This document shows positions 21,715 through 58,880 of a DNA stretch of 64,000 bases, piece by piece (the first letter of the stretch is position 1; every line of letters begins with the position of its first letter). The notes under the pieces were generated by a model. The model did not search any database and was not told the origin of the DNA. It was given only the letters and a program-made list of their open reading frames with translations. Position numbers and translations under genes: made by a program. The DNA comes from Chitinophagaceae bacterium (lineage in GTDB: Bacteria; Bacteroidota; Bacteroidia; Chitinophagales; Chitinophagaceae), in contig SAIX01000012.1 of NCBI GenBank assembly GCA_004028765.1, positions 1 through 64,000 on the forward strand, given 5' to 3'.

Positions 21715-23202
21715 ATGACTATTACTTCTTCGCAGCTCTATAATTATTATCAATGCCCGCATAAAGTATGGATGGATGAGAACGGACCGAAAGATCAGGA
21801 GATTCAGGAGACCAATCCTTTCGTGCAACTGCTATGGGATAAAGGTGTGCAGCATGAAGCAAACATTATTAAGGGTATTGGAGCTTACCTGGACCTCAGC
21901 CAGGGATCTCGTGAGACAAGAGTTGATCAGACGAGAAAAGCATTGGATGCAAAAGTGCCCTTGTTATACCAACCTGTTTTGACCAATGGTCACCTGCTTG
22001 GAATACCGGACTTGTTGGAATTACAAGCAGATGGTCAGTATTTGCCGATCGATATTAAATCAGGACAGGGATTTGAAGGACAAGCTGAGGAAGGGGATCA
22101 AAAACAAAAAAAGCATTATGCACTTCAACTGTGCTTATATGTCGAGATACTTCAATCAATGGGGTATTGTAATACGAGGGTGGGTTTTATTATCGATGGA
22201 GATGGGAATAGGGTTGCCTATGATCTGAATCTTGCATTGGGTCTTAAAAACCCGCAAACCTATTGGGCGTATTACGAGCAAATGCTGCAGGAAGTGCGAA
22301 ATATTCTTTCCGGTAAGGAATCAAACGATCCTGCCTTGAGCGGGGTATGTAAACTATGCAGTTGGTACTATGTCTGTAAACAATGGTGTGCTGATAATGA
22401 TGATCCAACACAAGTGTTTTACCTGGGCAGGAGCGTTCGTGATAAACTAAAGGCGGAAGCAGGCATTCATACTGTTGCAGATGTTGCGGCATTGGATGTA
22501 CAAGCATTGCTGGCACAGAAAAAGAAAGACAAAACTTTTTTAAAGGGCTTGGCTGAAGGCTCGCTAACCAGCGCTAAGCGGAGAGCTGAGCTTTTCCGGT
22601 CGAAAGGGGCACCGGTGGCGTATGAAAAAATAAATCTTCCCAAAGTTCAATACGAATTGTTTTTTGATATTGAAGACGATCCGACACAGGATTTTGTTTA
22701 CCTGCATGGTATTTATGTTCGGGAGAACGGCAAAGAATACTTTAAGGATTTCACCGCTACACAGATCAGTACTGCAGCAGAAGAAAAAGCATGGGCGGAT
22801 TTCTGGCAATATATCTGGTCGTTACCGAAAGATGATTTTGCCGTGTATTATTATTCATCTCATGAAAAAGCAACCTATGGACGGTTGCAAAAAAAATATC
22901 CCGTTGTTATCAGTGAAGAACAGCTTGCTGCTTTTTTTGATCATCCCTATGTCATTGACCTTTATACCAATATTGTTTTAAAACTGACGGACTGGCCACT
23001 TAGCAGTTATTCGATTAAAGAGCTGGCCACGTACCTGGGTTTTAAATGGCGTGATGCAACGCCATCGGGTGCTTTATCCATTCAATGGTTTAATGATTAT
23101 ATACAAAAGAATGATCCCGCCATATTAAAACGTATCCTGGAATACAATGAGGATGATTGTATTGCAACCATGGTGGTGAAGGATAAATTGGCCAGCATGT
23201 GA
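21715..23202 (+). CDS. TM0106-type RecB/Cas4-like nuclease with RNase H-like C-terminal domain
   Basis: 'ITSSQLYNYYQCPHKVWMD', 'LLGIPDLLELQADGQYLPIDIKSGQ', 'CKLCSWYYVCKQWC' and 'YELFFDIEDDPTQDFVYLHGIYV'. Confidence 0.75.
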   Translation: MTITSSQLYNYYQCPHKVWMDENGPKDQEIQETNPFVQLLWDKGVQHEANIIKGIGAYLDLSQGSRETRVDQTRKALDAKVPLLYQPVLTNGHLLGIPDLLELQADGQYLPIDIKSGQGFEGQAEEGDQKQKKHYALQLCLYVEILQSMGYCNTRVGFIIDGDGNRVAYDLNLALGLKNPQTYWAYYEQMLQEVRNILSGKESNDPALSGVCKLCSWYYVCKQWCADNDDPTQVFYLGRSVRDKLKAEAGIHTVADVAALDVQALLAQKKKDKTFLKGLAEGSLTSAKRRAELFRSKGAPVAYEKINLPKVQYELFFDIEDDPTQDFVYLHGIYVRENGKEYFKDFTATQISTAAEEKAWADFWQYIWSLPKDDFAVYYYSSHEKATYGRLQKKYPVVISEEQLAAFFDHPYVIDLYTNIVLKLTDWPLSSYSIKELATYLGFKWRDATPSGALSIQWFNDYIQKNDPAILKRILEYNEDDCIATMVVKDKLASM

Positions 23203-23225
23203 ATGGATCAGTTGTTGATCCATTC
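23201..23225 (+). terminator. Hairpin at the end of the nuclease gene
   Basis: GAATGGATCA-GTTGT-TGATCCATTC perfect 10-bp stem overlapping the TGA stop; no U-tract. Confidence 0.4.
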
Positions 23226-23295
23226 GGATGGCTTCAGTATATTTATATTCCCCCCGTTTAAGGATCATTCTTTACTGAACTAAGCTGCTTATTAC

Positions 23296-24189
23296 ATGGA
23301 ATATTATTCAACGTCACATTTTGCCAAACTGTTTGGTGTACCCGCCGCACAACTTTTTAGTGATCTGCAGCAATGGGGATGGATTGAACGATCGGGTGAT
23401 AAATGGGTGTTAACCCAACTCGGGAGACAGAAAGGCGGTGAAGCCCGATCTAATTCAAACTATGGAGAATACATTGTATGGCCGGAAGATATTTTTTTCG
23501 AGGAGGATCTTGACCGATCACAGTTCCTTAATTCCACTTCGATTGGAGATCATTTTAAGATTTCTTCCCGCCGGATGAACCTGATCCTGTCGGAGCTGGG
23601 CTGGATCGAAAAGGCGATTGCTGGTTGGGTAATCACGAAGCTGGGCAGGGAGCTTGGTGGGAGACAGCTGGAGCATGATATTTCCGGCGGGACCTATGTG
23701 CTTTGGCCGAAGGAGATTGTGAATAACCCGAACCTTCGCAATATTTTTTTCGAAACCGTACTTGAAGCAAAGGATGCAGCCCCTGTAGCAATAAAAACTG
23801 AAGCAACACCTATTGAAGCACCACTAACAGATAGTTTTCGCAATAAATTCCCGGCAACCTTCCGAACAAAAGATGGTCATATGGTTCGTTCACGCGCTGA
23901 AGTGATCATTGATAATGCACTGTACGATTACAAACTGGTTCATGCTTACGAAAGAAAAGTGCCGATCGAAGAAGATTTGTATTCAGATTTCTTCCTTCCG
24001 GCCGAAGGCGTCTACATTGAATATTGGGGTATGGAACACGATGAGAAATACCGCGAACGAAAGAAAGTGAAACTAGATCTGTATAAGAAAAATGAATTAA
24101 AGCTGATCGAACTGACTGATGAGGATCTAGCAAACTTGGACGATCATTTGCCAAGAAAACTCCTGAAGCATAATATCAAGGTGTACTAG
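23296..24189 (+). CDS. Protein with two tandem DNA-binding-like modules and C-terminal PD-(D/E)XK-like nuclease domain
   Basis: 'GWIERSGDKWVLTQLGRQKGGE...EYIVWPEDI' repeated as 'GWIEKAIAGWVITKLGRELGGR...TYVLWPKEI'; 'VRSRAEVIIDNALYDY...DFFLPAEGVYIEYWG'. Confidence 0.6.
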   Translation: MEYYSTSHFAKLFGVPAAQLFSDLQQWGWIERSGDKWVLTQLGRQKGGEARSNSNYGEYIVWPEDIFFEEDLDRSQFLNSTSIGDHFKISSRRMNLILSELGWIEKAIAGWVITKLGRELGGRQLEHDISGGTYVLWPKEIVNNPNLRNIFFETVLEAKDAAPVAIKTEATPIEAPLTDSFRNKFPATFRTKDGHMVRSRAEVIIDNALYDYKLVHAYERKVPIEEDLYSDFFLPAEGVYIEYWGMEHDEKYRERKKVKLDLYKKNELKLIELTDEDLANLDDHLPRKLLKHNIKVY

Positions 24190-25207
24190 AAGATTGTGCA
24201 TATTGGGTAAAAGCTTTTTTGTGTCGCCCTGCTACTAATTCAGCCAGTCGTTTGGGTGTGACAACCTTCACAGTTTCACCATAGGAAAGAATCAATCTTT
24301 CAAGTTCGTAGTTGGGTATTACCTGCAGCTGGACTTCCAGCATGTTTGCATTGATCCATTTTGCTTTCTGAGAACCGTGGAGAGGTTTGGAGGCAATGTA
24401 TTTGCCGGTAATACCAAAAAACTGTAGTACAATGGATTCAGTTTTTTTGTCCATCGGTTTTGTAACCCCTATAATGTCCTCAAAATATTCCTTCCAATCA
24501 ATCTTTGTATTCTTCTTGTAGGGTTTACGTATCGGCGTGATCTGTTGTATCCGATCCAGTGGAAGATTCCAGGTATAGATTTCTTTGTCTGGGTTATAAC
24601 CAAAGAGAAACCAGCGATTATTATATTGTTTGAGGTAATAAGGATGAATAATCAGTTCGAACGGCTGTGTACTTTCAAATGGCTGGTAGCGGATCTGCAA
24701 GACTTGCTTTTGGTAAATTGCACTGTATAAAACTTCCAGGTGTTCGATCCCCACCAGGTATTCGTTGCCGTCAAAATCAATGACCGGCTGATCCTGTTTT
24801 TTGTCGGCAATGCCCTGCTGTAATTTGGGCAGCAGTTCATGCATCCATTCAAATTGTGGCATCCCTTTAAACTGGGATAAAATATCAATGGTGCTTCGAA
24901 GCTGTTCTATTTCTAGCTGGTTCAGCGGCATACTATTGATAGAGAACGAAGGATCGGCATACCGGTAATAGACTTTCTTGCCATCCCGCAATTTTTCCAG
25001 CTCTATATGCCATCCTTCCTTGCTTTCCATAAAGGAGATGTCCTCGAAGATCTGACGCCGGCTGATTCCATTGGAATCCGGGTCGAGGTCCAGCAATACT
25101 TTCTCGCAGGCCTCGATCAAGTCATCAATAAAATACATTCGCCCATGATTGCGGAAGCAATTGTCCAGCACACGGTAGCGAATAAGGGCGTTTTTATTGG
25201 TAGGCAT
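24176..25207 (-). CDS. WYL-domain transcriptional regulator
   Basis: N-terminal wHTH, 'LEVLYSAIYQKQVLQIRYQPFES...ELIIHPYYLKQYNNRWFLFGYNPDKEIYTWNLPLDRI'; ATG at 25207. Confidence 0.85.
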   Translation of the reverse strand: MPTNKNALIRYRVLDNCFRNHGRMYFIDDLIEACEKVLLDLDPDSNGISRRQIFEDISFMESKEGWHIELEKLRDGKKVYYRYADPSFSINSMPLNQLEIEQLRSTIDILSQFKGMPQFEWMHELLPKLQQGIADKKQDQPVIDFDGNEYLVGIEHLEVLYSAIYQKQVLQIRYQPFESTQPFELIIHPYYLKQYNNRWFLFGYNPDKEIYTWNLPLDRIQQITPIRKPYKKNTKIDWKEYFEDIIGVTKPMDKKTESIVLQFFGITGKYIASKPLHGSQKAKWINANMLEVQLQVIPNYELERLILSYGETVKVVTPKRLAELVAGRHKKAFTQYAQSSSTP

Positions 25208-25226
25208 ACCCAAAATTATGTATTAT

Positions 25227-25268: not shown

Positions 25269-25470
25269 ATCTTTGAAAACCTGCCGCACAGATATTGAAT
25301 CGGCCAGTTGGGATGGAACATCGTTCTGTTCAAATCGACTGGTTTCTTGCCATCCGGTAAGATGAAGGGTTAGACGTTATTTATATATTTTTATATGACG
25401 ATAACGTATTTCGCTTTTCTATACTTTTCTTTCATATACAAAGAATACAGCGGCAGGTTTTTCAAAGGTT
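25269..25470 (+). ncRNA. Retron msr-msd region bounded by a1/a2 repeats
   Basis: CTTTGAAAACCTGCCGC (25271-25287) complements GCGGCAGGTTTTTCAAAG (25450-25467) with one bulge; internal hairpins CCAGTTG/CGACTGG and ACGTTAT/ATAACGT; ends 10 nt before the RT ATG. Confidence 0.8.
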
Positions 25471-25479
25471 TTATAACAC

Positions 25480-27534
25480 ATGCCGCCAGAGGACAAACAT
25501 ATCAAGTATATCCGCCAATCGTTTGCGAAGCTGCAAACCAAGGAGGATTTGCTGGATCTGCTTAATTATGCGAAGGATATAGTATATAAGGGTAAATCGA
25601 TCCCTTTTAGTCTGAGCCAACTTACCTGGTTTTCTAATCCGACGATCAACAAACGCAGGTATATCCGCTTTGAAGTATCGAAGAAAAGAAAAGGAGAAGT
25701 GCGTGTTATCCATGCACCTCGAAAAGGGCTAAAAGCTATCCAGAAATCTCTGGCCTATATACTGCAATCTGTGTTTGAGCCCGGTAAAGCAGCCACCGGT
25801 TTTGTATGGAATAAATCTGTAGTGGATAATGCGAGGGTACATGCTGGTAATTGGTATGTCTACAATCTCGATCTAAGAGATTTTTTTTCGAGCGTTGATC
25901 AGGCCAGGGTATGGAAATGTTTGCAGCTTCCACCTTTTAACATGCCCATCCAGGTGGCCAATATTGTGGCAGCACTATGTTGTACAAAAATGCAGGTAGA
26001 ACGAATGGATGATAAGGGAGAGTGGCAGAATGAGAAACGTAATGTATTACCACAAGGCGCGCCTACTTCGCCGGTTCTTTCCAATGTCGTGTGTCAGAAG
26101 TTGGATTACCTGCTCGCAGCAGTAGCTAAAAAGTATGGTGCTAAATACAGCCGATACGCTGATGATATCACATTCAGTTCCCTGCATAGTATTTACCAGC
26201 CGGATGGTGATTTTTTAAAAGAAGTTGCAAGAATCATTACGCAACAGCGCTTTCAAATCAAGGAAAGCAAAACGCGTCTCCAGAAGCAAGGATATCGACA
26301 GGAAGTAACCGGCCTTGTTGTCAATGAAAAACCGAACGTTTCCAAACGTTTTATTAAGGGGCTTCGCATGTGGTTGTATTACTGGGAATGTTATGGTTAT
26401 GCAAAGACACTCGAATATTTTAAGGAATATTATTCTGCAGACCGACCTCAAAACAAGATTCCTAACATGATTGACGTTATCCACGGCCGACTCGATTTTT
26501 TATCGATGGTGCGTGGTAAAGCAGATCCGTTATATCTGAAGTTAAAAAAGAGGTTCGATACGTTACTCCCTCCGACCGCAATTCAGAATCGTGAGATAGA
26601 AAAAGTCGGTTATCCTGAAATGGCCAATATCCGGCCACGGGAAACGATGGAGTTTCTGAAGCATTTTAAGTATGATGATGATTATCCGTTCAAACACCTA
26701 GTACATCAACCGATCGATCCAGAAAAATTCGATTTTTATGAGTTGTTGAAAGACGCTAAAAAAGAATTTATAAGAATATCGCGCACCTATGACAACAGGC
26801 TCGAACTTCCTAAAACTTTATACGAAGCGGTCAATGAGTTATTTCAGGTGCTAGAAACCAAGGGGCTTAAATACTTTAATGATAAGAAACTCCACCCGAT
26901 TCATGAACGGGAAACGGGTCGTATCATACAAAAATTCAAAAGGAACTACCGCTTTGGTAACGAGAAAAGTGAAACGACATCTTTAACCACTGTACTGGTA
27001 AGCGCCGCTGAAAACAGGAGATTTGTAGCTCATGAAGAGGGTGTCACATATAGTTTTAGTGTAGTGGATACTTCCGGGATCTTTCGTAAAGAACAATTAG
27101 TGTTTTTGCCGGATGAAAAACGCTTTAAAATAAAAGCGAATTTTTTTACCTGGGTGCCTAATGTAATCATTGCCTTCGGTGTTATGTTTGAAAATATCCT
27201 TAAGCATAGCAATGTGAACGGTGAGCGGCCCTTTGATCCCGCAAAAAAACAGATCCTGATCGATCTGAACAGACAGAAGCAAAAGGATTGTACTTCGATC
27301 ACCCTTTCTTTACTTGACAAAGAATCTCTGTGTAGCGCAAATGTTGATAGCATGTTGCGGAATCTGCGCCGCGAATTCCTGTCCGTATTAAAAGGGGTAT
27401 GTGATTTCAAGGTACAGTTTACAGATGAGGCAGGCCAGAGCTATGAAACCAGGGTCCTGCCATATGCTGAGGCTACTGAGAAAATTGATACAAATCCTGG
27501 TGGATTTAAATATGTATTTACATTTTACGATTAA
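25480..27534 (+). CDS. Retron reverse transcriptase with long C-terminal extension
   Basis: RT motifs incl. 'LPQGAPTSPVLSN', 'YSRYADDITFS'; retron signatures 'NARVH' (NAxxH) and 'VTGLVVN'; about 340-aa extension. Confidence 0.9.
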   Translation: MPPEDKHIKYIRQSFAKLQTKEDLLDLLNYAKDIVYKGKSIPFSLSQLTWFSNPTINKRRYIRFEVSKKRKGEVRVIHAPRKGLKAIQKSLAYILQSVFEPGKAATGFVWNKSVVDNARVHAGNWYVYNLDLRDFFSSVDQARVWKCLQLPPFNMPIQVANIVAALCCTKMQVERMDDKGEWQNEKRNVLPQGAPTSPVLSNVVCQKLDYLLAAVAKKYGAKYSRYADDITFSSLHSIYQPDGDFLKEVARIITQQRFQIKESKTRLQKQGYRQEVTGLVVNEKPNVSKRFIKGLRMWLYYWECYGYAKTLEYFKEYYSADRPQNKIPNMIDVIHGRLDFLSMVRGKADPLYLKLKKRFDTLLPPTAIQNREIEKVGYPEMANIRPRETMEFLKHFKYDDDYPFKHLVHQPIDPEKFDFYELLKDAKKEFIRISRTYDNRLELPKTLYEAVNELFQVLETKGLKYFNDKKLHPIHERETGRIIQKFKRNYRFGNEKSETTSLTTVLVSAAENRRFVAHEEGVTYSFSVVDTSGIFRKEQLVFLPDEKRFKIKANFFTWVPNVIIAFGVMFENILKHSNVNGERPFDPAKKQILIDLNRQKQKDCTSITLSLLDKESLCSANVDSMLRNLRREFLSVLKGVCDFKVQFTDEAGQSYETRVLPYAEATEKIDTNPGGFKYVFTFYD

Positions 27535-27536
27535 AT

Positions 27537-28130
27537 ATGAATAAGCTATTAGTAATCGATAATAGATTAGCGGAATGGGTGCATGACAAATACGATAAGG
27601 TAGAATTTGCTCGGTTTCCTGATGATTATTTTGATTGGGATGAGGAAGGCAACTACTGCCGTCCGCGTTTCGAAAAAAAGGAATTCGATTTTGTAATGAT
27701 GCACCATAGCCAGCTCAGCCCTAAACCGCTGCCTTCGAATTTTACCGAGCTGCTTTCTCTTGAGTTAGAAAACAAATTGATTTTTTTTAGCGGCGGAATC
27801 ACTAAAGAAGAACTGACGCTTGAGAATCCTGAGCTTCCATATAGTATTGCACTCAGAGATTCCATTGAACGTGGGTTTAGAAATTTTGCGCGTAAATCGA
27901 TTCGCGCCAACCAGTGGCTGATCGGCCTTTTTTTTGAGTCCTATATCCCATCGCTAATCCGATCCATTCAGGAAATGATGGATCGAGGAATAGATGTGTC
28001 GGTGGTCAAACAATCATCCCCTTTAAATGAACTACTACTCTTAAAGAATGTATTTGCTGGAACAGATCTATATGAAAAAATTATGCGGTTGAATGATCGC
28101 AATCTGATGGAAGAGCTCAAAAAACTTTAA
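27537..28130 (+). CDS. Hypothetical protein, possibly degenerate receiver-like
   Basis: 197 aa, 3 nt after RT stop; 'KLLVIDNRLAEWV...KEFDFVMMHHSQL...KLIFFSGG' mimics receiver strands without phospho-Asp. Confidence 0.5.
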   Translation: MNKLLVIDNRLAEWVHDKYDKVEFARFPDDYFDWDEEGNYCRPRFEKKEFDFVMMHHSQLSPKPLPSNFTELLSLELENKLIFFSGGITKEELTLENPELPYSIALRDSIERGFRNFARKSIRANQWLIGLFFESYIPSLIRSIQEMMDRGIDVSVVKQSSPLNELLLLKNVFAGTDLYEKIMRLNDRNLMEELKKL

Positions 28131-28131
28131 C

Positions 28132-30039
28132 ATGCAGAGGATTATATTAACGGAACAGCCAGAAAAATATACTGTTGGATTTGACAATGTTGACATTGTT
28201 GATGTGGCGCCGTTGGTAGGAGAAGTTCCGGCCAATTGGAAGCTCTATGGACAGGAGTTTGGACCCTATATTATTTGCGAAAGCCTGCAGAGGGTCGATT
28301 CATTTGTAGCTATTGATTTTGGCATTACCTGCGTCAATCAATACTTACTGGCGCACCATGTGCTTTCGACGTTAAAAGATCCTGTCGTTGTTTTAGTAGC
28401 AGATGAAAATATTCCTAATCTTCAGTTAGCGAAAGATTTTGGGTTGTTGCGTAACGAAGGAATTGCGGTTATTCGGATTGAACAACTAAGCGAACTTTTC
28501 ACGGCACAGGAATTGCTGGAAAAATATGTTGAGCAATTTCACGATACATTTGATCCGAATCGGTATTTCAAAGAATCACCAGCTTTTTTCAAAATGGATC
28601 GTCACCAAATGATCAATGAGTGGGGAGCCATCAAATTGTTACTCAACCATGGACTTACGCTGCAGCAAATAGAAGCAGCTTATCCATTGCCCAAAACTGT
28701 TTTTTTTAAACAGAAATTGGCAAGTTTGAATATCGGAGAAACGTCGGTACTTTCTTTGAGCAGTTATCCGGAACTAAGTAAGCTGCAACAAGCAAAGGGT
28801 AATTTTTTATCAGCAGCAGCAGCGGTTCGTAAAATTTTGCTTATCGATGACAATGCGGATAAGGGGTGGCAATTTGCGTTACAACAGTTGTTCTCTTCTG
28901 CGCAAATAGACGTTTGCGCTTGCTACCAGGATGCTTGTGCTATTACGAATTTCGCGCAGTATGATCTTATTTTCCTTGATCTGCGATTGCCGGATGTTTT
29001 TGGCGGATCTTATCCTGATATTGAAAATGGTAAAAGTTTAATACGGGACATAAAAGCTAAACCCAATGCACGTTATATTCCTCTTATTGTGTTTACTGCG
29101 TCTCAGCAGGCAAGGACTATGCATGAAGTTCTTAATGGTGGTGCCGATGCTATGTATGTCAAAGAAGCACCCGATTGGGATTCGCAGCAATCTGTTCAGA
29201 ATTATCATGAATTCCTGGACATGCTTCAGTTGCAGATAAAAAAAGGAGCCGAATTAAAAATCTATTGGCAGGCAATCGTGCAAATTAAAAGCAACTTTTT
29301 ATCCCAGATCGCTAATCAACCTGGATTTGCATTTGAAGATCGGATTGAAGAAAGGTTAGAGATGTTTTACGGCTTGCTTAAAAAGAAATATGAGGAACTG
29401 GAGTATAACAAAACTATGTTTCATTTTTCTGCAGATATACTTGCATTTATCACGCTATGGAGTATCCTGAACGATATTCAGGAGGCGTATTTTGAAAAAG
29501 GACTTGGGGAGTCTTTTACGAAAGTGAAAAATTTTTCTACTACTCCTCCAAGCTATACCCCGGTACCTTTGGATAATTGGCGTATCAAGGGGCAAACGCC
29601 AGACAAATATTTCGTAGTCGAAAAGCCTATCATTGAGGAGAACATTACTGTGACTGGCAGCCGTTCAAGACCTGGCCTAGATTATATCAGGAGAGATATT
29701 TATTCGGATTTCCAAATCAACAGGACTTCTCCTTACTTCGGATTTGATCCTGCCGGATTTCAATTTCGAAAAGTAGATTACCGCACGAAATTGTTCGTGC
29801 AAATTGGGTTTCTTTTGATGGCCAAAAATGAGCTCATAGGCACCACTAAACAGGCAGGATATTTGCAGACACTACGCGATGCCAATGAGCAACGAAATAA
29901 GCTATACCTGACGCATGGGGAAGATGGTAGTAATTTTTACGCGGTAAAAGAAAAGGATAAGCATTTTTCGTCTGCAATCACGCTTGATTTGTTCAAGTTG
30001 GTAGCTTTTCTGCTAACCGGAAACGATACTATTATATGA
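28132..30039 (+). CDS. Response-regulator receiver-domain protein in the retron operon
   Basis: Receiver 'VRKILLIDDNADKG...YDLIFLDLRLPD...PLIVFTAS...DAMYVKEA' with D, T and K residues; unknown flanking domains; one nt after previous stop. Confidence 0.75.
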   Translation: MQRIILTEQPEKYTVGFDNVDIVDVAPLVGEVPANWKLYGQEFGPYIICESLQRVDSFVAIDFGITCVNQYLLAHHVLSTLKDPVVVLVADENIPNLQLAKDFGLLRNEGIAVIRIEQLSELFTAQELLEKYVEQFHDTFDPNRYFKESPAFFKMDRHQMINEWGAIKLLLNHGLTLQQIEAAYPLPKTVFFKQKLASLNIGETSVLSLSSYPELSKLQQAKGNFLSAAAAVRKILLIDDNADKGWQFALQQLFSSAQIDVCACYQDACAITNFAQYDLIFLDLRLPDVFGGSYPDIENGKSLIRDIKAKPNARYIPLIVFTASQQARTMHEVLNGGADAMYVKEAPDWDSQQSVQNYHEFLDMLQLQIKKGAELKIYWQAIVQIKSNFLSQIANQPGFAFEDRIEERLEMFYGLLKKKYEELEYNKTMFHFSADILAFITLWSILNDIQEAYFEKGLGESFTKVKNFSTTPPSYTPVPLDNWRIKGQTPDKYFVVEKPIIEENITVTGSRSRPGLDYIRRDIYSDFQINRTSPYFGFDPAGFQFRKVDYRTKLFVQIGFLLMAKNELIGTTKQAGYLQTLRDANEQRNKLYLTHGEDGSNFYAVKEKDKHFSSAITLDLFKLVAFLLTGNDTII

Positions 30040-30271: not shown

Positions 30272-30964
30272 ATGAATTGCCTGATTATTGATGATAATCC
30301 TAAGACCTCAGTGGTTCTTTCGGATCAATTACGCGGACTCCAAATAGTTGCACGGGTACATATCGCCGTGCAACCTTACCTGATCCGTTCGCTAATGGCG
30401 GTAGAGACAATTGATGTGGTTTTAATCCGCGTCCGACTTTGGAATTATGCAGTTTTTGAAAGATTGGAGTACATGCCACTAATCATTTTTCTATGTGGGG
30501 GAAAAGATAAACTGACGGACAAATCGGGTACATCAGTACCCTACCGTTTGCGGGAGCCATATTACCCTGCCGATATACAGTTACTATTTCGTCGCATAGC
30601 GTCTGAAAGGCTCATTGAATCACCATCCTATTTCTTTGTACGCAGTGAAGGCAGGTTTCATAGGGTGTTTTTTGAACATCTTGAGATGATAGAGCGCATG
30701 CAGATGGGTTATGTGAAGATATGGACGCGGTTTACGTTTTTCCTGGTGAGCACTACACTGAACCAACTTCTCCGGCAGGTGCCTGAAGGCCGTTTCATCC
30801 GAGTTAGTGATACGCTCATTCTTCCACTTTCAGAAGCGCGAACTATAGAAGGAGACAGTTATACGTATCGTGGACGCGAGATACTGTTGACTTTTCGTTT
30901 TGCTGCTGCTGCCAGAAAAGAAATGCAGCAGGCTGCTAACTGGTCGAGTTGGCCATCCAATTAG
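30272..30964 (+). CDS. LytTR-type response regulator with degenerate receiver
   Basis: 'MNCLIIDDNPKTSVVL' then 'VVLIRVRLW' lacking phospho-Asp; LytTR-like C-terminus 'VFFEHLEMIERMQMGYVKIWTR...FIRVSDTLILPL'. Confidence 0.65.
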   Translation: MNCLIIDDNPKTSVVLSDQLRGLQIVARVHIAVQPYLIRSLMAVETIDVVLIRVRLWNYAVFERLEYMPLIIFLCGGKDKLTDKSGTSVPYRLREPYYPADIQLLFRRIASERLIESPSYFFVRSEGRFHRVFFEHLEMIERMQMGYVKIWTRFTFFLVSTTLNQLLRQVPEGRFIRVSDTLILPLSEARTIEGDSYTYRGREILLTFRFAAAARKEMQQAANWSSWPSN

Positions 30965-34208: not shown

Positions 34209-35192
34209 GTGAATACAGTCGCACGACATATTAAAGATGATTTTGGGATTTCGATCCAGATACAACCCCTAGATAGATCGGAACTTGCGCGCCTACCCCT
34301 TTTTGTGCGGAGCGGCGTTGAACTTTATGAAGGTAAACTTAGTGGTGTACCGGTTTTGTGGGCTGAAAAAAAAGACCTGGAAGAAATAACCCCGACCAAA
34401 CTCAGAAAACAGGTTGAGCAACTGGAAAAGTATTTTCAGAAAATAGTTGTGTTCATATTGCCTAAGTTGGAGAGTTGGATTCGTAGTCGGCTGATCGAAA
34501 ACCAGGTTGCTTTCGTCGAACCCGGGCGGCAGCTGTATATTCCGCAGCTCTTTTTACAATTGAGTGAAATCCCGGCCAGAGGGGGGCGGAAGCTAATAGT
34601 GGACAAGCTTAGTTTTCCTGCGCAAAGTTTTATAATCGATCATTTAAACCAAGGACAATCAATGAGTGGGAGTTTCCAGGAACTCGCACGTCGCATTGAC
34701 TGTTCGGCTATGACGATATCGCGTATCGCGCGGGAATTGGAATCCTTAGAGATTGTAACCATCGAAGGGGGGAGACCAAAGCAAATGGTATTTACCCGGG
34801 AGGGAAAAGCGCTTTGGGAAAAGGCCCATCCCTTCCTCAGCTCACCTGTCAAGGAAATATGGTTCACCAATGAGCAACTTTCGGTCAATCATTTTGTGAA
34901 GGCGGGTAACAGTGCGCTCTCGGCTTATACTGATATAAATGATATATACCCGCAGACCTTTGCTATAGGAAAAGAGTCTTTTAAAGACATGCGCGACAGT
35001 GGCATGGTTACTGATCTCAATAAATACGAGGGCAGGTTTCTTATAGAAGTCTGGCATTATGATCCGCTAATCATTCGCCATGAAGGTGGACTGGTGGATC
35101 GCTTATCGTTGTATCTAACCATGGAGGGCGTATCGCGGGACGACCGTGTAAAAGCTGCATTGGAAGAACTTTTAAAAGAGCATACATGGTAA
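34209..35192 (+). CDS. AbiEi-like antitoxin (winged-helix)
   Basis: HTH 'GSFQELARRIDCSAMTISRIARELESLEIVTIEGGRPKQMVFTREGKALWEKA'; overlaps nucleotidyltransferase gene. Confidence 0.7.
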   Translation: MNTVARHIKDDFGISIQIQPLDRSELARLPLFVRSGVELYEGKLSGVPVLWAEKKDLEEITPTKLRKQVEQLEKYFQKIVVFILPKLESWIRSRLIENQVAFVEPGRQLYIPQLFLQLSEIPARGGRKLIVDKLSFPAQSFIIDHLNQGQSMSGSFQELARRIDCSAMTISRIARELESLEIVTIEGGRPKQMVFTREGKALWEKAHPFLSSPVKEIWFTNEQLSVNHFVKAGNSALSAYTDINDIYPQTFAIGKESFKDMRDSGMVTDLNKYEGRFLIEVWHYDPLIIRHEGGLVDRLSLYLTMEGVSRDDRVKAALEELLKEHTW

Positions 35193-35953
35193 TCGGACTC
35201 GATCTGTTCACGGAACACTTCAGTGATTATACAGATCATTATATACTGATAGGTGGATCTGCCTGTGATGTCCAGATGGCAGCGAGAAATGAAGAGTTTA
35301 GGGCCACAAAGGATCTTGATATTATTCTTGTTGTAGAGGCCCTAAGCCCTGACTTTGTGAACCATTTCTGGGATTTTATCAAAGGGGGTGAATATGCAAT
35401 TGCTGAGGTAGGCAATAAAAAAAGATTTTATCGGTTTGTCAAACCCCATGTCGACGGTTATCCTGTCAGGATAGAGCTTTTCTCTCGTCATCCGGAGACC
35501 TTGCCTGATCCGCCAGCAGATATGTATATCACAGATATTCCGACAGAGGAAGAGGCCTCGAGCCTATCTGCTATATTGCTTGATGATGCGTATTACGGAT
35601 TTGCCATCGATAACTGTGATATTATCGAGGGATTACGGTTGGCAAATGATCGATGCCTTGTCTGTCTTAAAACGCGCGCATTTTTGAATAATAGGGAAAG
35701 AAAGGCAAATGGTGCTGATATCCATGATGTAGATATTTACAAACATAGACGCGATGTATTACAATTGATGGGGGTTATCGATCCAGCTATCGTAGTCTCG
35801 GTGCCCGAAACCATACAAAATGATCTTAAAAACTTCATTGCTTATGTTAATGAAGAACCAGATACGATCCAGCAGATATTAAAGGACATAGAGCTTGACA
35901 CCAGTCCCGATGAGGTAGTTAAACTGATGCGGAATATTTTTTCACTTACCTAA
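35186..35953 (+). CDS. AbiEii-like nucleotidyltransferase
   Basis: 'YILIGGSACDVQM...FRATKDLDIILV' NTase GS...DxD motif. Confidence 0.75.
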   Translation: MVIGLDLFTEHFSDYTDHYILIGGSACDVQMAARNEEFRATKDLDIILVVEALSPDFVNHFWDFIKGGEYAIAEVGNKKRFYRFVKPHVDGYPVRIELFSRHPETLPDPPADMYITDIPTEEEASSLSAILLDDAYYGFAIDNCDIIEGLRLANDRCLVCLKTRAFLNNRERKANGADIHDVDIYKHRRDVLQLMGVIDPAIVVSVPETIQNDLKNFIAYVNEEPDTIQQILKDIELDTSPDEVVKLMRNIFSLT

Positions 35954-35961
35954 ATACCGCT

Positions 35962-36744
35962 ATGCCAAACAATATCGATAGCTGGCTTCAGTTAACACCA
36001 TCTGACTGGCTGGTAAGGGATCGTTACGAGGTGTTAAGTGAGAATGAAAAGCGCACTCGTTTTGAGTTAGTCGATAAACTCATGCTACCACTTCCTAAAA
36101 GAGTGCCCCATGATTTCAAAGACTTAAGAGGATTACTGCAGTACGAATGGCGAATGATAATCGATGCATACCGGGTTAATTTTGAAGATAAGTATTGCTA
36201 TGAATCCGTCGAAGAGGCTTTTGATGATTGGGATCTTTGGAGCGAGGACGACGAAGAGATTAAAAGCCTTCATATCAATACCGATGTTTGGATTGCTCAA
36301 GCTAGGTCGGTTTTTGGGGAGAAGATCAAGCATTTCTACAGTGCGCTTGCTACGGAACAAGATTATAATAAACATTTTTCGAACCCAAACTGGCCGGATC
36401 AAAGAATTATTGCGGAATCCTATAAAAGAGCCTTGCTGTTGCCACTTGTCGATACAAACTACCTCGATCAGATGTTCGTTCAAATGGCGGAATATTTTTC
36501 AGATGCTATTTATTACAACCACTGCTTTAAATTCATTGTCGAAACGGACCAACTTTGTGGTTACTCCCAAGGAATACCTTGTACGCATTTGCTATTCAAG
36601 CTTGATCCGGTTCAGATTATTTACCATGTCTACCCGATACCTGATAAGGAGATCGCGCCTAATAAGGCTGAGTGGATGGAACTGGAAGATGGCGAAGAGA
36701 TTGTCTGTGACAATTTAATGGATGCGGATGCATTGAATGCATAG
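35962..36744 (+). CDS. Hypothetical protein linked to AbiE-like pair
   Basis: 260 aa, 8 bp downstream of the NTase, same strand. Confidence 0.5.
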   Translation: MPNNIDSWLQLTPSDWLVRDRYEVLSENEKRTRFELVDKLMLPLPKRVPHDFKDLRGLLQYEWRMIIDAYRVNFEDKYCYESVEEAFDDWDLWSEDDEEIKSLHINTDVWIAQARSVFGEKIKHFYSALATEQDYNKHFSNPNWPDQRIIAESYKRALLLPLVDTNYLDQMFVQMAEYFSDAIYYNHCFKFIVETDQLCGYSQGIPCTHLLFKLDPVQIIYHVYPIPDKEIAPNKAEWMELEDGEEIVCDNLMDADALNA

Positions 36745-47997: not shown

Positions 47998-48300
47998 ATG
48001 AATAGCGTATATACAATCAATAAGGGTGTGGGAAGACCTGTTGTGTTCAAAGGGTTAAAAGCACAGTGGATTTGGTATCTCGGCGGTGGGATACTCGGCT
48101 TGCTATTACTGTTTACACTGCTGTACATCATGGGGCTCCCTGTTGTGTTCTGTATTACACTAATTATATTTCTGGGCTGCATGCTCTTTTATCTCGTGTA
48201 CCGTTTCAATGCAAGGTTTGGAGAATATGGACTCATGAAAAAAATGGCGGCAAAGGCGGTGCCGCCAGTAATATACTGTGATCAAATGTTTCGTGCGTGA
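47998..48300 (+). CDS. traF: TraF-like (DUF4133) conjugation protein
   Basis: 'VYTINKGVGRPVVFKGLKAQWIWYLGGG' and two TM segments. Confidence 0.85.
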   Translation: MNSVYTINKGVGRPVVFKGLKAQWIWYLGGGILGLLLLFTLLYIMGLPVVFCITLIIFLGCMLFYLVYRFNARFGEYGLMKKMAAKAVPPVIYCDQMFRA

Positions 48301-50711
48301 AAAAGTTATCAGAGAAAATTCCTTTATACAGTGTGGAAAATGATATGCTGCTCTCCAAAATAGGCGACATCACGGTGGCGTACACGATAACACTTCCTGA
48401 AATATTCTCTCTCTCCAATGCTGAATATGAGGCCCTGCATCAAAGCTGGATCAAGGCCATCAAAATATTGCCAGCGGGATATATACTTCACAAACAGGAT
48501 TGGTTTACCCAGGAAAGATTTCAAGGTGATTTTGAGCGAGAACATACGTTTCTATCGCATGCAAGTGAAAGGTTCTTTCATGAGCGACCCTATCTGTCAC
48601 ACCGTTGTTATTTGATGCTGACGATGCCTGCGCAGGAGAGGGTAGCCGTCAATTCTTATTCATCAACGCTCCTGCGCAAGCATTTGGTTCCCAAAGAAAC
48701 GCTTGACCCCGGGTTTGCAAAAACTTCTGAAAATGTTTGTTCTCAGTTCGTGCGCATTTTATCAGATGGCGGTCTGATAGCATGCGAACGATTACATAAC
48801 GACGCTTTGGTGAAGTTGGTCAATGAATACCTTTTGCTGGATACAGATAATCTGCGACGTGACCTTGATTTTTCAGATGGGGTGCGAGTCGGTGAGAAAT
48901 ACTGTACCATGTTTTCGTTTGCGCAAGCGGATGATCTTCCGGGGTTTTGCGGTCCCCGTATCGCTTACGAAAAATATTCGACCGCGACTACAAAGTTCCC
49001 CATTGGTTTTGTTTCGCCACTCTGCCAGCTCTTACCAGTGGATCATTTGTACCAGCAGTTTATCCGTATTGAAGACGGGCCTGCTGTCATGAAACGGTTA
49101 GAGAAGAAAAGATTGCGACTACAGTCTTTATCGGCCTATTCGCGGGACAACGCTTACGCGTGTGATGCGGTGAACCGATACCTGGAAGAGGCTATTGGGG
49201 AGCAAAGACAGCCGGTATCTGCGCATTTTCACTTGTTGGCGTGGACAGATGACGGCACCCGTATTCAAGAGGTGCGAAATGCTTGTAGCGCTGCCATAGC
49301 TTCCATCGACGCAAACCCAAGAGTTGAAACTGTAGGTGCGCCACAGCTTTATTGGGCAGGCATTCCGGGCAACGCGGCGGATCTACCCTTGAATGAAACC
49401 TTCTTGACATTCTCCCAACAGGCAAGTTGTTTTATCAATACGGAGACAGGGTATCGTTCTACGGGTGTGGATTTTGGGGTACGCTTAGGGGATCGCGAGT
49501 CCGGAAGACCGCTCCTGGTTGATATTTCGGATGAGCCGATGAAAAGGGGCATCATCACTAACCGCAATAAATTTATCCTAAGTCCCTCTGGTGGTGGTAA
49601 GTCTTTTACGGTAAACCATCTAAAGCGCTCTTATTATGAGTTAAACGCGCATATCCTGATTGTGGACATAGGACATTCCTATCGCAGTCTCTGTCGGATG
49701 TTAGCCGGCTATTATTTTACCTATTCCGATGAGAAGCCCATGCGGTTTAATCCTTTTATTACTTCAGACGGAAAAGCACCAGACCAGGAGAAACAGGAAA
49801 GTATAAAGACGCTACTTGTTACGCTTTGGAAAAAAGACGATGAAAAATTTACGCGTAGCGAATATGTTGCTCTTTCAAATGCCATAACTCTTTATTACAA
49901 TAAGCCCATTGGCGATAGATCTTTTGATAGTTTTTACGAGTTCCTGCAAACGGAATACGCAGAGATTGTCAGATCCGAGAATTTGAAGGATCGCGATTTT
50001 GACCTGACGAATTTCCTATATGTCCTGCGTCTGTATTACAGGGACGGACAGTATGGATTTCTCCTTAATGCAAAAGAAAATCTCGATTTACTGAATGAAC
50101 GCTTTATTGTTTTCGAGCTAGATACTATCAAAGACCATCCGATTTTACTACCCGTAGTTACGATCATCATCATGGAGGCGTTCATCGCCAAGATGCGTAA
50201 ACTAAAGGGCATCCGGAAAATTATACTGATAGAGGAAGCATGGAAGGCTATCATGCAGGATACGATGGCGGAGTACATCAAATACCTGTATAAGACGGTA
50301 AGAAAACATTTTGGTGAGGCCTATATCGTTACCCAGGATATCGATGACATTCTTTCTTCGTCGATCGTAAAACAAACCATCATCAATAACAGCGACTGTA
50401 AGATACTTCTGGACCAGTCAAAATTCGAAAACCGGTTCGAGGAGGTCCACCGACTGCTAGGATTGACGGAAAAAGAAAAGGGATTGGTGCTTTCAATGAA
50501 CAGGGCAAACGATCCGACGAAGAGATACAAAGAGGTTTTTATTTCCTTAGGCGGGCGCGTTTCAAAAGTGTACCGGGTGGAAGTGTCACCGGAAGAATAC
50601 TATACCTACACGACAGAAGAAAGAGAAAGGGTCAAAGTGGATGAGGCGATAAAAGTGTTCGGCGGAATAGAGGCTGCGATACAGTCGATCGTGGTAGAGA
50701 GTGGAAAATGA
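48297..50711 (+). CDS. traG: TraG-family conjugation ATPase
   Basis: Walker A 'SPSGGGKSFTVNHL', Walker B 'KIILIEEAWKAI'; 804 aa. Confidence 0.92.
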   Translation: MKKLSEKIPLYSVENDMLLSKIGDITVAYTITLPEIFSLSNAEYEALHQSWIKAIKILPAGYILHKQDWFTQERFQGDFEREHTFLSHASERFFHERPYLSHRCYLMLTMPAQERVAVNSYSSTLLRKHLVPKETLDPGFAKTSENVCSQFVRILSDGGLIACERLHNDALVKLVNEYLLLDTDNLRRDLDFSDGVRVGEKYCTMFSFAQADDLPGFCGPRIAYEKYSTATTKFPIGFVSPLCQLLPVDHLYQQFIRIEDGPAVMKRLEKKRLRLQSLSAYSRDNAYACDAVNRYLEEAIGEQRQPVSAHFHLLAWTDDGTRIQEVRNACSAAIASIDANPRVETVGAPQLYWAGIPGNAADLPLNETFLTFSQQASCFINTETGYRSTGVDFGVRLGDRESGRPLLVDISDEPMKRGIITNRNKFILSPSGGGKSFTVNHLKRSYYELNAHILIVDIGHSYRSLCRMLAGYYFTYSDEKPMRFNPFITSDGKAPDQEKQESIKTLLVTLWKKDDEKFTRSEYVALSNAITLYYNKPIGDRSFDSFYEFLQTEYAEIVRSENLKDRDFDLTNFLYVLRLYYRDGQYGFLLNAKENLDLLNERFIVFELDTIKDHPILLPVVTIIIMEAFIAKMRKLKGIRKIILIEEAWKAIMQDTMAEYIKYLYKTVRKHFGEAYIVTQDIDDILSSSIVKQTIINNSDCKILLDQSKFENRFEEVHRLLGLTEKEKGLVLSMNRANDPTKRYKEVFISLGGRVSKVYRVEVSPEEYYTYTTEERERVKVDEAIKVFGGIEAAIQSIVVESGK

Positions 50712-50735
50712 TTAATTAATAAAAAAATGTGAGTC

Positions 50736-51533
50736 ATGAATAAGTGGGTGTGGAATAAAAGTGTTTTATGGCAGGGGGACTGTCTTGAATTATTGCCGAA
50801 AGTACAGGATCGATCGGTAGATATGGTGCTCTGTGATCTGCCGTATGGAACAACTTCTTGCAAATGGGATAAGAAAATCGACATTGTTCGGTTATGGGAA
50901 CAGTACCTGAGGGTGATTAAACCCAATGGTGCAATTATCCTTACAGCCAGTCAGCCGTTTACTACCGAGCTGATCAATAGCAACCCTAAGCTTTTTAAGT
51001 ATGAGTGGATATGGGTCAAGAATACCTGTACGGGTTTTCAGATGTCCAAGACCCAGCCTTTAAAAAAGCATGAGAATGTTCTCGTGTTCTCAGAGGGAAA
51101 AATGAGTAGTTCAAAGGCCGGATTCTCTAAGAGAATGTTGTACTACCCTCAAGGGCTGGTGCGGATCGATAAAAAAGTTTCTAAACGCGCGAGTAAAGAA
51201 GATTGCATTATACATATCAAGCGATCCAGTAGCCATATACAGGAGTTCACCAACTATCCCATGTCGGTGCTTCATTTTAAAAAAGAGAATGGATTACACC
51301 CGACACAAAAACCGGTTCCGCTCTTCGAGTACTTAATACAAACCTACTCGACCCCGGGTGGGGTGGTGCTTGACAATTGTTCAGGAAGCGGCACCACCGG
51401 TATTGCCTGCCTGAATACCAACCGTCGTTTTATCCTGATGGAGCAGGATAGTGCCTATGTGGAACGAACCGTTAAACGTATCCGCGAACATTTGAAAAGT
51501 ATGAAGAAGAAGCAAGTAACAACATGCAAGTAA
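50736..51533 (+). CDS. DNA (N6-adenine/N4-cytosine) methyltransferase, orphan
   Basis: 'DMVLCDLPYGTTSCKWDK', 'HPTQKPVPLFEYLIQTYSTPGGVVLDNCSGSGTTGIACLN'. Confidence 0.9.
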   Translation: MNKWVWNKSVLWQGDCLELLPKVQDRSVDMVLCDLPYGTTSCKWDKKIDIVRLWEQYLRVIKPNGAIILTASQPFTTELINSNPKLFKYEWIWVKNTCTGFQMSKTQPLKKHENVLVFSEGKMSSSKAGFSKRMLYYPQGLVRIDKKVSKRASKEDCIIHIKRSSSHIQEFTNYPMSVLHFKKENGLHPTQKPVPLFEYLIQTYSTPGGVVLDNCSGSGTTGIACLNTNRRFILMEQDSAYVERTVKRIREHLKSMKKKQVTTCK

Positions 51534-52135
51534 AAATACTGTTTGTGCTCTTGGTCTGCTGCACGTCAAAAGTTTGTGCGCAGTCTATCGATCCGGTATC
51601 GCTGTTAATAGGTAAGATAGTAAAAGCCCTTGATCTGCAGGTGCAGAAGCTACAGAACCAAACCCTTTCCTTACAGCAATTACAATTGGTGGCGGAGCAT
51701 GAACTCTCAAAAACAAAGCTCGCGGAAATCGCCGATTGGCAACAAAGGCAGCAGGCTTTGTATGATGGTTATTTTAAAGAATTGCAAACAGTAAAGAACG
51801 CTGTCAAATCCCTTACTCAGATTCGACAAATTGTATCGATGCAGGCTGACGTGATTCGAGCGTACAAGAAAATTTCAGGCAGTTCAACCAACAAAGACCG
51901 CTTGCTCAGTCTAAGCCACGATATCCTTCAATCCTTGGAAGCCGTTACGAACAATGGACAAATGGCCATGAATGACGCAGCGCGTATAAAGGCAATTCTT
52001 AGAAAAAGAGATGCAATGGAAGAATGTCTTGCGCAAATGCTAGCGATCAACAAGGTACAACAACATGCGGCTATCGATTCCTTACAAAGACTGTCAGACT
52101 TTCAGTTACTAAAACGCTTAAACAACAAAAGATGA
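51524..52135 (+). CDS. Secreted coiled-coil protein in transfer operon
   Basis: Signal peptide, helical; ATGA overlap with next gene. Confidence 0.5.
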   Translation: MQVKILFVLLVCCTSKVCAQSIDPVSLLIGKIVKALDLQVQKLQNQTLSLQQLQLVAEHELSKTKLAEIADWQQRQQALYDGYFKELQTVKNAVKSLTQIRQIVSMQADVIRAYKKISGSSTNKDRLLSLSHDILQSLEAVTNNGQMAMNDAARIKAILRKRDAMEECLAQMLAINKVQQHAAIDSLQRLSDFQLLKRLNNKR

Positions 52136-52752
52136 AAATTGGGCTGGTGTGGATCATGATATGCACCGCATATGTGCGAACCCATGCGCAAACGCAAGAG
52201 ATGGAACAGTTAAGGCTGGATCTGGAAAAACTAGCGCAGTTTAAGTTGATGCTCACCGAAATGAAGTCAGGGTATCAAACGATGCTCAGCGGATATAGTG
52301 CTTTGCGCGATATCGGTAAGACCAATTTTAACTTACATAAAGGGTTCCTGGATGGTTTACTGGCGGTAAATCCTTCAGTCGCTCGTCAGCCTGCAGTACA
52401 AAGAATTTACGCGCATCAGAATAGAATAATAAGCGACAGTAAATCATGGATCACACGCTTAAGAAATACGCAGGTCTTTAAAGCGTCAGAGATAGCTGAA
52501 GTGGTAGCAGATTATTCAAACCTCATTTTGCTGCTGGAAGCAGATCGGGATCTTTTAGAAAAAGTACTCACCCCGGGAACCTACAGGATGAGTGACGCAG
52601 AACGATCGGAGATTATTTCAACTATCGAGGTCTCGGTACAAAAGCATACTCAGAAGTTCAGCGAGTTGCAGGAACAATATAATCGACAGTTATCGCTTCG
52701 GTTACAATCAAAAAAAGATGCGCAGGATATCAGACGCCTGGGTAAACAATAA
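52132..52752 (+). CDS. TraI-like conjugation protein
   Basis: Helical secreted protein 'KLAQFKLMLTEMKSGYQTMLSGYSALRDIGKTNFNLHKGFLDGLL' upstream of TraJ. Confidence 0.65.
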   Translation: MKIGLVWIMICTAYVRTHAQTQEMEQLRLDLEKLAQFKLMLTEMKSGYQTMLSGYSALRDIGKTNFNLHKGFLDGLLAVNPSVARQPAVQRIYAHQNRIISDSKSWITRLRNTQVFKASEIAEVVADYSNLILLLEADRDLLEKVLTPGTYRMSDAERSEIISTIEVSVQKHTQKFSELQEQYNRQLSLRLQSKKDAQDIRRLGKQ

Positions 52753-52764
52753 ACAGCAGCTATA

Positions 52765-53763
52765 ATGAAAAGAATGTATGTGTTGATTTTATTCTTACCG
52801 ATTGGAGTGCATGCGCAAACCCTTTCCAATGGAACGTACATGCAATCGGTACTGGACCAGTTGTATAACGCGATGATGCCTATGTGCGGCCAGCTGATCG
52901 GTTCTGCCAGACTGATTGCAGGACTGGCTACGCTGTGCTATATCGGTATGCGGGTTTGGAAAAGTATTGCAGCAGCAGAACCATTGGATCTCTTCGGTTT
53001 GCTTCGCCCTTTTGTTATCGGGTTCTGTATTCTCATTTTCCCCTCCTTTATTACGCTGTTGAATGGGATACTGCAGCCCACCGTAGCAGCTACTTCCTAC
53101 ATGGTAAGGAACAGCAATACTGTGATGGAAAAATACCTGGCTGCCCAACAGGCATCAAATGGTGGGCTGGGCATGTTAAATCCGGCCAGTTGGATCAGGG
53201 CCGGAATAAAAGAAATTCTGGAAGTCGTCTTTCAAACGGCGGCGCTGATCATCGATGTAATCAGAACCTTCTATTTAATAGTACTAGCGATCATCGGTCC
53301 TATTGTTTTTGCACTTTCCATTTTCGATGGCTTCCAGCATTTGCTTACTGTTTGGCTGGCGCGGTACATCAATGTATTTCTCTGGCTGCCGGTGGCCAAT
53401 ATTTTTGGCGCCATCATTGCCAAAGTCCAGGAGACCATGATTGCAAACGCGCCTGTGGACGATGCGCTACCGTATTCCACCACCAACTGGGCTTATATCG
53501 CATTTCTTTTGATTGGTGTCATTGGATATTTCACCGTTCCATCCGTGGCTAATTATATAGTGAATGCAGGTGGTGGCAATGCACTCTTGCATAAAGTAAC
53601 CTCCATGACCGTAGGTGCTGCAAAACAAACAGCTAGTGCGGTTACGACTGCCAGCACAGGAATGTCTGCCGATGCCTTTGGAAAAGGGGCAAATAAAATG
53701 ACCCAGGGCATGAGCGAGTCTGGTGCATCGAACAATTACTTCAAAGAAAAAATAAAAGGGTAA
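52765..53763 (+). CDS. traJ: TraJ-like conjugation membrane protein
   Basis: Multi-TM protein 'ARLIAGLATLCYIGMRVWKSIAAAEPLDLFGLLRPFVIGF'. Confidence 0.85.
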   Translation: MKRMYVLILFLPIGVHAQTLSNGTYMQSVLDQLYNAMMPMCGQLIGSARLIAGLATLCYIGMRVWKSIAAAEPLDLFGLLRPFVIGFCILIFPSFITLLNGILQPTVAATSYMVRNSNTVMEKYLAAQQASNGGLGMLNPASWIRAGIKEILEVVFQTAALIIDVIRTFYLIVLAIIGPIVFALSIFDGFQHLLTVWLARYINVFLWLPVANIFGAIIAKVQETMIANAPVDDALPYSTTNWAYIAFLLIGVIGYFTVPSVANYIVNAGGGNALLHKVTSMTVGAAKQTASAVTTASTGMSADAFGKGANKMTQGMSESGASNNYFKEKIKG

Positions 53764-53766
53764 AGC

Positions 53767-54384
53767 ATGTTCGAGCCTACTAGAAATATAGACACTGCTT
53801 TTCGCTCGATGCGTATGGTCATGCTTACGGTGATCATCGCATGTCTGCTCATAAGTGCTTACGCGGTGTATAAAAATGGCAAGATCGCAGAGCGCATGCA
53901 GGACAGGGTGTATGTCCTGAACTCTGGAGTTGCCATGGAAGCGGTTGCGGGTACCAGGCGCGATAACTTGAGCGTAGAAGCAAAGGATCATGTGCGCCGG
54001 TTTCATGAACTGTTCTTTTCACTCGATCCTGATGAAAAAGCGATTTCTAGTAATATCCGCCGCGCACTATACCTGGCAGATGCAACGGCTAAAAAACAGT
54101 ACGATGATTTGGTGGAAACTGGATATGTCTCGGGCATTATTTCAGGCAATATTAGTCAGCATATATCAGTAGATAGTGTTGCTGTGTCACTTAGCAGTGA
54201 GCCTTATGCGTTTACATGTTATGCGACACTAAAGATCATACGCTCTTCGAGCATCGTCAGTCGAAGCCTGATTACGGCGGGCGTACTGCGAGTCGTATCT
54301 AGATCGGAGCATAATCCGCACGGGTTCCTGATTGAAAAATGGGAAGTGATAGAAAATAAGGATATCAAAATCGAGAACAGATGA
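53767..54384 (+). CDS. traK: TraK-like conjugation protein (VirB8-like)
   Basis: One TM, 'HVRRFHELFFSLDPDEKAI', position between TraJ and TraM. Confidence 0.85.
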   Translation: MFEPTRNIDTAFRSMRMVMLTVIIACLLISAYAVYKNGKIAERMQDRVYVLNSGVAMEAVAGTRRDNLSVEAKDHVRRFHELFFSLDPDEKAISSNIRRALYLADATAKKQYDDLVETGYVSGIISGNISQHISVDSVAVSLSSEPYAFTCYATLKIIRSSSIVSRSLITAGVLRVVSRSEHNPHGFLIEKWEVIENKDIKIENR

Positions 54385-55475: not shown

Positions 55476-55476
55476 G

Positions 55477-56247: not shown

Positions 56248-56260
56248 AAATTTTGGAGAC

Positions 56261-57829: not shown

Positions 57830-57839
57830 ACCACAAAGT

Positions 57840-58532: not shown

Positions 58533-58535
58533 GTT

Positions 58536-58811: not shown

Positions 58812-58831
58812 AGCCTCTGAAAAGCGTTGGA

Positions 58832-58857
58832 AACCGGTGAAATTCACCGGTTTTTTT
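58832..58857 (+). terminator. Intrinsic terminator of transfer operon
   Basis: AACCGGTGA-AAT-TCACCGGTT with T7. Confidence 0.85.
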
Positions 58858-58880
58858 GTGGGTGATTGAAAGTGTGAAGT

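Follow-up and report, generated by a model that had tools for sequence, protein, structure and literature searches.

The 64,000-nt stretch of contig SAIX01000012.1 analysed here (the window) carries at positions 25270–30039 a retron operon whose reverse transcriptase (RT) is fused to a histidine-kinase-like domain and accompanied by two receiver-type proteins, p2 and p3, the latter ending in a HEPN-like domain. We consider it probable that this is an anti-phage retron in which a pseudo-kinase/pseudo-receiver scaffold restrains a receiver-gated HEPN RNase, leading to abortive infection. A structured RNA, the RT–kinase-like fusion, p2 and p3 follow one another in this order on the + strand. According to the open reading frame (ORF) list, the gaps are 2 nt between RT and p2 and 1 nt between p2 and p3, the spacing already given by a first-pass annotation of the same DNA, which had proposed a retron with receiver-domain partners. 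Two features go beyond that annotation, namely the HEPN-like C-terminus of p3 and a divergent WYL regulator upstream.

The RT contains the motifs NARVH (residues 117–121), YADD (226–229) and VTG (276–278), which are kept in its relatives. The best PADLOC models were RT-Protease_XI (328 bits) and RT-TIR_XII (305 bits), matching RT residues 45–373, while the RT_IX model scored 163 bits; the best solved relatives were the retron RTs Ec67 and Ec86. Motifs, PADLOC ranking and solved relatives thus agree with the retron identity assigned earlier. A protease or TIR fusion of type XI or XII was rejected, since the C-terminus belongs to the Pfam family PF22561 (HisKin-conflict) and the PADLOC match ends at about residue 370. 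Single-protein RT scans of genome contigs and viral contigs gave no match. In an RT tree of 30 rows, the RTs linked to a HisKin domain and three RTs with a HEPN-like partner only formed one clade (support 99/96). The HEPN-only rows were nested within this clade and fused and split RT–HisKin forms were intermixed, indicating that parts were exchanged or lost more than once. The window RT is predicted to synthesise multicopy single-stranded DNA (msDNA).

Upstream of the RT lies an msr-msd RNA bounded by a1/a2 repeats. The inverted repeat reported in the first-pass annotation proved complementary with one bulge, and its approximately 200 nt of hairpins correspond to a 199-nt strand folding at −71.4 kcal/mol, compared to −39.2 ± 4.2 kcal/mol for shuffled sequences (z = −7.7; 0 of 200 shuffles as good). 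Covariation was assessed in 13 loci, ten of them HisKin-linked and the others being L034, L035 and L036, an RT at a contig end (L-numbers label related loci). Across them, 94.7% of pairs in the a1/a2 helix and first msr stem were kept, versus 28–49% in slid-alignment controls. Compensatory changes occurred at 11 of 19 pairs, amounting to 44 cells against a shuffled mean of 15.5, a value reached in none of 500 shuffles. In the first msr stem, 98.3% of cells were paired and both sides had changed at five of nine pairs. A chance inverted repeat was rejected in view of this covariation. The pattern TTTGAAA..CCTGCC ... GGCAGG..TTTCAAA was found upstream of most HisKin-linked RTs and of their HEPN-only relatives in a survey that left out L142–L144; L059 has a different a1/a2 pair, identified by eye, and no a1/a2 pair could be defined at L056. 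An Rfam scan of the 20–36 kb region at E up to 5 matched no retron family.

Residues 384–683 of the fusion protein match PF22561 (E = 3 × 10−23, 83 bits, cut-off 27). An AlphaFold model of the extension, built from 12 homologues (pLDDT 78, pTM 0.80), gave HK853, DesK and pyruvate dehydrogenase kinase (PDK) as top Foldseek rows and superposed on PDK2 with a VIA Z of 9.2 (3.8 Å over 208 residues). These structural matches to histidine kinases and pyruvate dehydrogenase kinases show the fold to be kinase-like. The GHKL relationship suspected in the first-pass annotation therefore stands as a matter of fold, as seen from PF22561 and the model, but the N-box argument on which it was based does not, since the Asn of the window sequence FENILKHSN is changed in the nearest homologues (FKGILQHSN, VQGIRDHSN, FDSILKHSN). 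Furthermore, the G1 (DxGxG) and G2 boxes were missing from all 12 aligned kinase-like domains, and the full set of residues by which a working histidine kinase is recognised (H-box, N-box Asn, G1 DxGxG and G2 glycines) was absent across the 12 homologues. P386, H409, D413, S616 and D642 are invariant. As no homologue retains the catalytic boxes, phosphotransfer through an ordinary kinase relay is doubtful; we read the extension as a pseudo-kinase in which H409 might serve as an unorthodox phospho-acceptor. No match was obtained with the extension profile against solved sequences, or when plasmids and phages were searched by tblastn with the kinase-like part.

The protein p2 had been described as looking like a degenerate receiver, and the alignment of nine homologues bears this out, showing a receiver-like pattern. 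The phospho-acceptor Asp is replaced by an invariant His56; F84 is likewise invariant, and the FSGG motif of p2 belongs to a type of strand end common to all nine sequences.

The receiver of p3, previously noted as intact, was confirmed by Pfam Response_reg at residues 235–346, with D239, D240, D283, T322 and K344 present. Over 13 p3 homologues D239, D240, D283 and K344 are invariant and position 322 is T or S, although the homologues are only 16–43% identical overall. The receiver model matched solved receivers with Z = 12.9. The p3 N-terminus corresponds to a pseudo-receiver, PF22563 (iREC) being matched in 8 of 14 homologues. At the C-terminus, every p3 homologue complete in this region carries R-N/K-x(3–6)-H (R-K-x3-H in L057). 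Motifs of the R-N-x(3–6)-H type are a signature of HEPN ribonucleases. In the AlphaFold model of the window p3, the motif, R588-N-x5-H595, terminates one helix of a helical bundle, as expected for R-x(4–6)-H of HEPN domains. We thus regard p3 as a putative receiver-gated HEPN RNase and the probable RNA-cutting effector. The first-pass annotation was right that the partners are receivers, but the effector function probably resides in the HEPN-like domain that follows the p3 receiver; a receiver acting alone as effector was rejected in view of the HEPN motif. Single-protein p3 scans of genome and viral contigs and a p3 profile scan of viral contigs yielded no match, and a search in plasmids returned receiver-type matches only.

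To place the operon among related genomes, PF22561 was searched in 396 genomes of the order, 295 of the class and 296 of the phylum, the samples being partly overlapping. Matches above cut-off were found in ten other genomes of the order sample and three more of the class sample; in the phylum sample only the window's own match exceeded it. Each of the 13 other above-cutoff domains either forms one protein with a homologous retron RT or is encoded directly downstream of it. Overall, the association occurs in at least 15 Bacteroidota genomes including that of the window (14 further loci), extending to the Bacteroidales contig CAIYES010000280.1 (L065), which has the fused RT–kinase-like form, p2 and p3. 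The earlier proposed link between RT and receiver partners is therefore conserved well beyond the window. The recurrent order is RT(±HisKin), HisKin, pseudo-receiver, receiver-HEPN. The window, L055, L057, L063 and L065 have RT and HisKin in one protein, the other loci have them in separate genes, and the pseudo-receiver and receiver-HEPN genes are sometimes fused or re-cut (L058, L061, L062, L142, L143). A p3 homologue, the candidate effector gene, stands beside every HisKin-linked RT examined. Judged by sequence, a divergent WYL gene occupies the same place in most related loci (L055, L058–L065 and HEPN-only RT loci). In many loci the effector is followed by a RecD-like helicase, usually with a TPR-like protein bearing a cold-shock-like C-terminus; this arrangement recurs at L055, L057, L058, L060, L061, L063, L064, L065, L143 and L035, whereas the window has neither gene. 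The helicase of L055 corresponds to PADLOC PDC-M16A.

The first-pass annotation had held that close homologues lacking both downstream genes would speak against the system. Such homologues were found only at L034, L035 and L088, where the kinase-like domain is absent too and a different HEPN-like partner is present; every HisKin-linked RT examined keeps its receivers. At these three loci the RT is followed by a 241–263-aa protein with a conserved R-N/D-x(2–4)-H. Together with L089, whose RT shares their clade and RNA type and is likewise followed by a protein with this motif, they are probably plain HEPN retrons. The four partners had no convincing Pfam or PADLOC match, and PADLOC run on L034, L035 and L088 found none. 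Since such partners accompany RTs of the same clade, it appears that an RNA-cutting effector is what these systems have in common, while their signalling parts vary.

The receiver-HEPN module also occurs with kinases that look active. The RT-free operons L032 and L033 encode large kinases that keep the H-box MSHNIGSH and the N-box Asn, and a p3 homologue in which a pseudo-receiver and a complete receiver are joined to a C-terminus with RN-x3-H. The p3-like protein of L033 gave weak DUF4145 and HEPN-family matches. No PADLOC or Pfam model names this two-component-like HEPN system, and hhalign of the window kinase-like domain and of p2 against the RT-free operon kinase was not significant.

Table 1. 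Coordinates of the retron operon, its RNA elements and related loci (window positions unless a locus label is given).
Feature	Position	Strand	Remarks
WYL/WCX transcription regulator	24176..25213	−	Pfam WYL, E = 2 × 10−11; divergent from retron
Retron non-coding RNA (msr-msd)	25270..25468	+	Between WYL gene and RT; fold z −7.7, covariation in 13 loci
a1 arm, CTTTGAAAACCTGCCGC	25271–25287	+	Complementary to a2; pairs changed in compensation across homologues
First msr stem-loop	25303..25343	+	Arms 25303–25311 and 25335–25343
a2 arm, GCGGCAGGTTTTTCAAAG	25450–25467	+	Pairs with a1; ends 12 nt before RT start
RT + histidine-kinase-like fusion, 684 aa	25480..27534	+	RT part residues 1–355; RVT_1, E = 1 × 10−21
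HisKin-conflict (PF22561) domain, residues 371–684	26590..27531	+	GHKL fold, catalytic boxes degenerate
p2 pseudo-receiver	27537..28130	+	Alignment of 9 homologues
p3: N-terminal pseudo-receiver, receiver, C-terminal HEPN-like putative effector	28132..30039	+	
p3 receiver domain, residues 233–374	28828..29253	+	Response_reg, E = 2 × 10−9
p3 HEPN-like helical domain, R588-N589-x5-H595	29332..30036	+	Motif conservation; helical bundle in model
HEPN-only RT loci	L034:7073–7858, L035:6216–7007, L088:7317–8042, L089:7484–8413		Partner 241–309 aa
RT-free receiver-HEPN operons	L032:6392–14926, L033:3279–11567		Large kinases, receiver-HEPN protein, further receiver protein

Several other genes of the window belong to its wider neighbourhood. 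Adjoining the retron, positions 21715–24189 encode a Cas4/RNase H-like protein and the PADLOC candidate PDC-S69 (E = 6 × 10−105), and positions 534–2991 a HipA-like C-terminal protein and the candidate defence gene PDC-M36A. Adjacent genes at 34209–36744 (a helix-turn-helix regulator and a nucleotidyltransferase) resemble an AbiE-like pair by eye, with no convincing family match. Positions 30272–30964, 232 nt after p3 and outside the conserved operon, encode a receiver-like protein that weakly matches LytTR. A TraG-type conjugation gene (48297–50711) and a large serine recombinase (59026–60699) lie approximately 20–30 kb downstream of the retron; the genes in 48297–60699 suggest a conjugative element, and the neighbourhood is compatible with a mobile defence island.

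In the mechanism we propose, the msr-msd RNA, the RT and its partners would be produced from WYL-controlled transcription. The RT would make msDNA and stay bound to it, while its kinase-like domain and p2 would hold p3 inactive in a complex. A phage would alter the msDNA or the RT complex, and the change would pass via the kinase-like domain to the p3 receiver. The HEPN domains might then dimerise or open up, and their cleavage of cellular RNA, probably of tRNA, would stop growth before the phage multiplies. With a kinase-like domain that looks dead and a receiver that is complete, control by a scaffold is put first; phosphorylation of the receiver from another donor, or as a checkpoint, is possible. 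Given the HEPN-only relatives and the precedent of the type IX retron-Kva2, the simplest reading is a retron guarding a HEPN RNase via signalling-derived parts, and PADLOC defence candidates among the neighbouring genes support it. Several observations weigh against it. A complete receiver site stands beside a dead kinase with no explanation. The HEPN part of the window p3 has no Pfam match, its profile found no solved structure, and its hhalign comparison with the HEPN-only effectors was not significant. Model confidence in this part is moderate, with a disordered insert. HEPN folds were not among the p3 structure matches listed, which are filled by the receiver domain.

The signalling parts may also act purely as adaptors, with no phosphorylation at all and the receiver residues kept for Mg2+ binding or folding, which would make the system an ordinary HEPN retron with scaffolding. 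The degenerate kinase, the pseudo-receiver p2, the N-terminal iREC of p3 and the occurrence of related retron RTs beside a plain HEPN-like partner all fit this possibility, but conservation of the canonical receiver positions at such low overall identity argues for chemistry, and we regard it as somewhat doubtful. More doubtful still is the proposal that the RT-msDNA state sets phosphorylation of the receiver gating the HEPN RNase, the His-for-Asp pseudo-receiver being an unusual relay or brake. As a full phosphorelay, the kinase-like domain would autophosphorylate, perhaps at His409, His56 of p2 would take part and Asp283 of p3 would switch the HEPN domain. The completeness of the receiver site throughout the p3 homologues, the invariance of His409 and Asp413 in 12 kinase-like domains and of His56 in p2, and the pairing of receiver-HEPN proteins with box-keeping kinases in L032 and L033 favour such a relay; however, the N-box Asn, G1 and G2 glycines are missing in the 12 sequences and the model places His409 outside its long helices, so that we think it unlikely.

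A role in regulation instead of defence, with msDNA or RT status controlling host gene expression or RNA turnover via p3, would accord with the usual regulatory function of two-component parts and with the attached WYL regulator. However, the distribution is patchy (11 of 396 order genomes above cut-off and 1 of 296 phylum-wide), and the defence-candidate neighbours, the PDC-M16A helicase partner in L055 and the HEPN-like effector speak against it, making this quite improbable.

A retron is assigned to its type by the target of its RT-msDNA sensor, which here would be signalling parts and not a toxin directly. The receiver-HEPN protein shared with RT-free kinase operons offers a natural experiment on the rewiring of two-component systems to a nucleic-acid sensor. 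The proposed system would also give a function to PF22561, retron-linked in all above-cutoff Bacteroidota cases seen. YADD, D283, H409, H56 of p2 and R588/H595 offer sites for point mutants.

Among known retrons, types XI (RT-protease) and XII (RT-TIR) resemble the window system in having an RT with a fused C-terminal part, and provide its best-scoring PADLOC RT models. However, the profile match stops at the RT end (25–325 of 506), and in the window the RT continues into a kinase-like domain and is followed by separate genes for a pseudo-receiver and a receiver-HEPN protein. In the type IX retron-Kva2, RT-msDNA sequesters a HEPN RNase and releases it on a phage trigger, and no canonical motif was reported for this HEPN protein (preprint PMC13405049). 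Control of a HEPN RNase by RT-msDNA, which is predicted for the window system, would be the shared feature. Kva2 differs in combining HEPN with a winged-helix protein and in lacking receivers and a kinase-like domain, whereas the window HEPN, with R-N-x5-H, is fused to receivers; no winged-helix gene was recognised in the window operon by ORF list or Pfam.

Outside retrons, the RT-free operons L032 and L033 share the receiver-HEPN protein; they differ in having no RT and in forming a multi-gene operon with large kinases that retain H-box and N-box, and with a further receiver protein. Detocs and similar systems use kinase-like and receiver proteins to control a toxic effector; they have no reverse transcriptase and resemble the window system by description. 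Pfam describes PF22561, to which the RT extension belongs, as seen in conflict contexts, and both PF22561 and the PF22563 iREC of p3 homologues reportedly go back to Burroughs and Aravind (J Bacteriol, 2020). Since Pfam names the kinase-like and inactive-receiver domains, these were recognised earlier. No paper joining retron, histidine kinase and receiver as one system was found in a search that stopped short of key subscription papers, and none of the PADLOC retron models covers the window system. Among the retron types checked, we therefore claim as new a retron RT with kinase-like, pseudo-receiver and receiver-HEPN partners.

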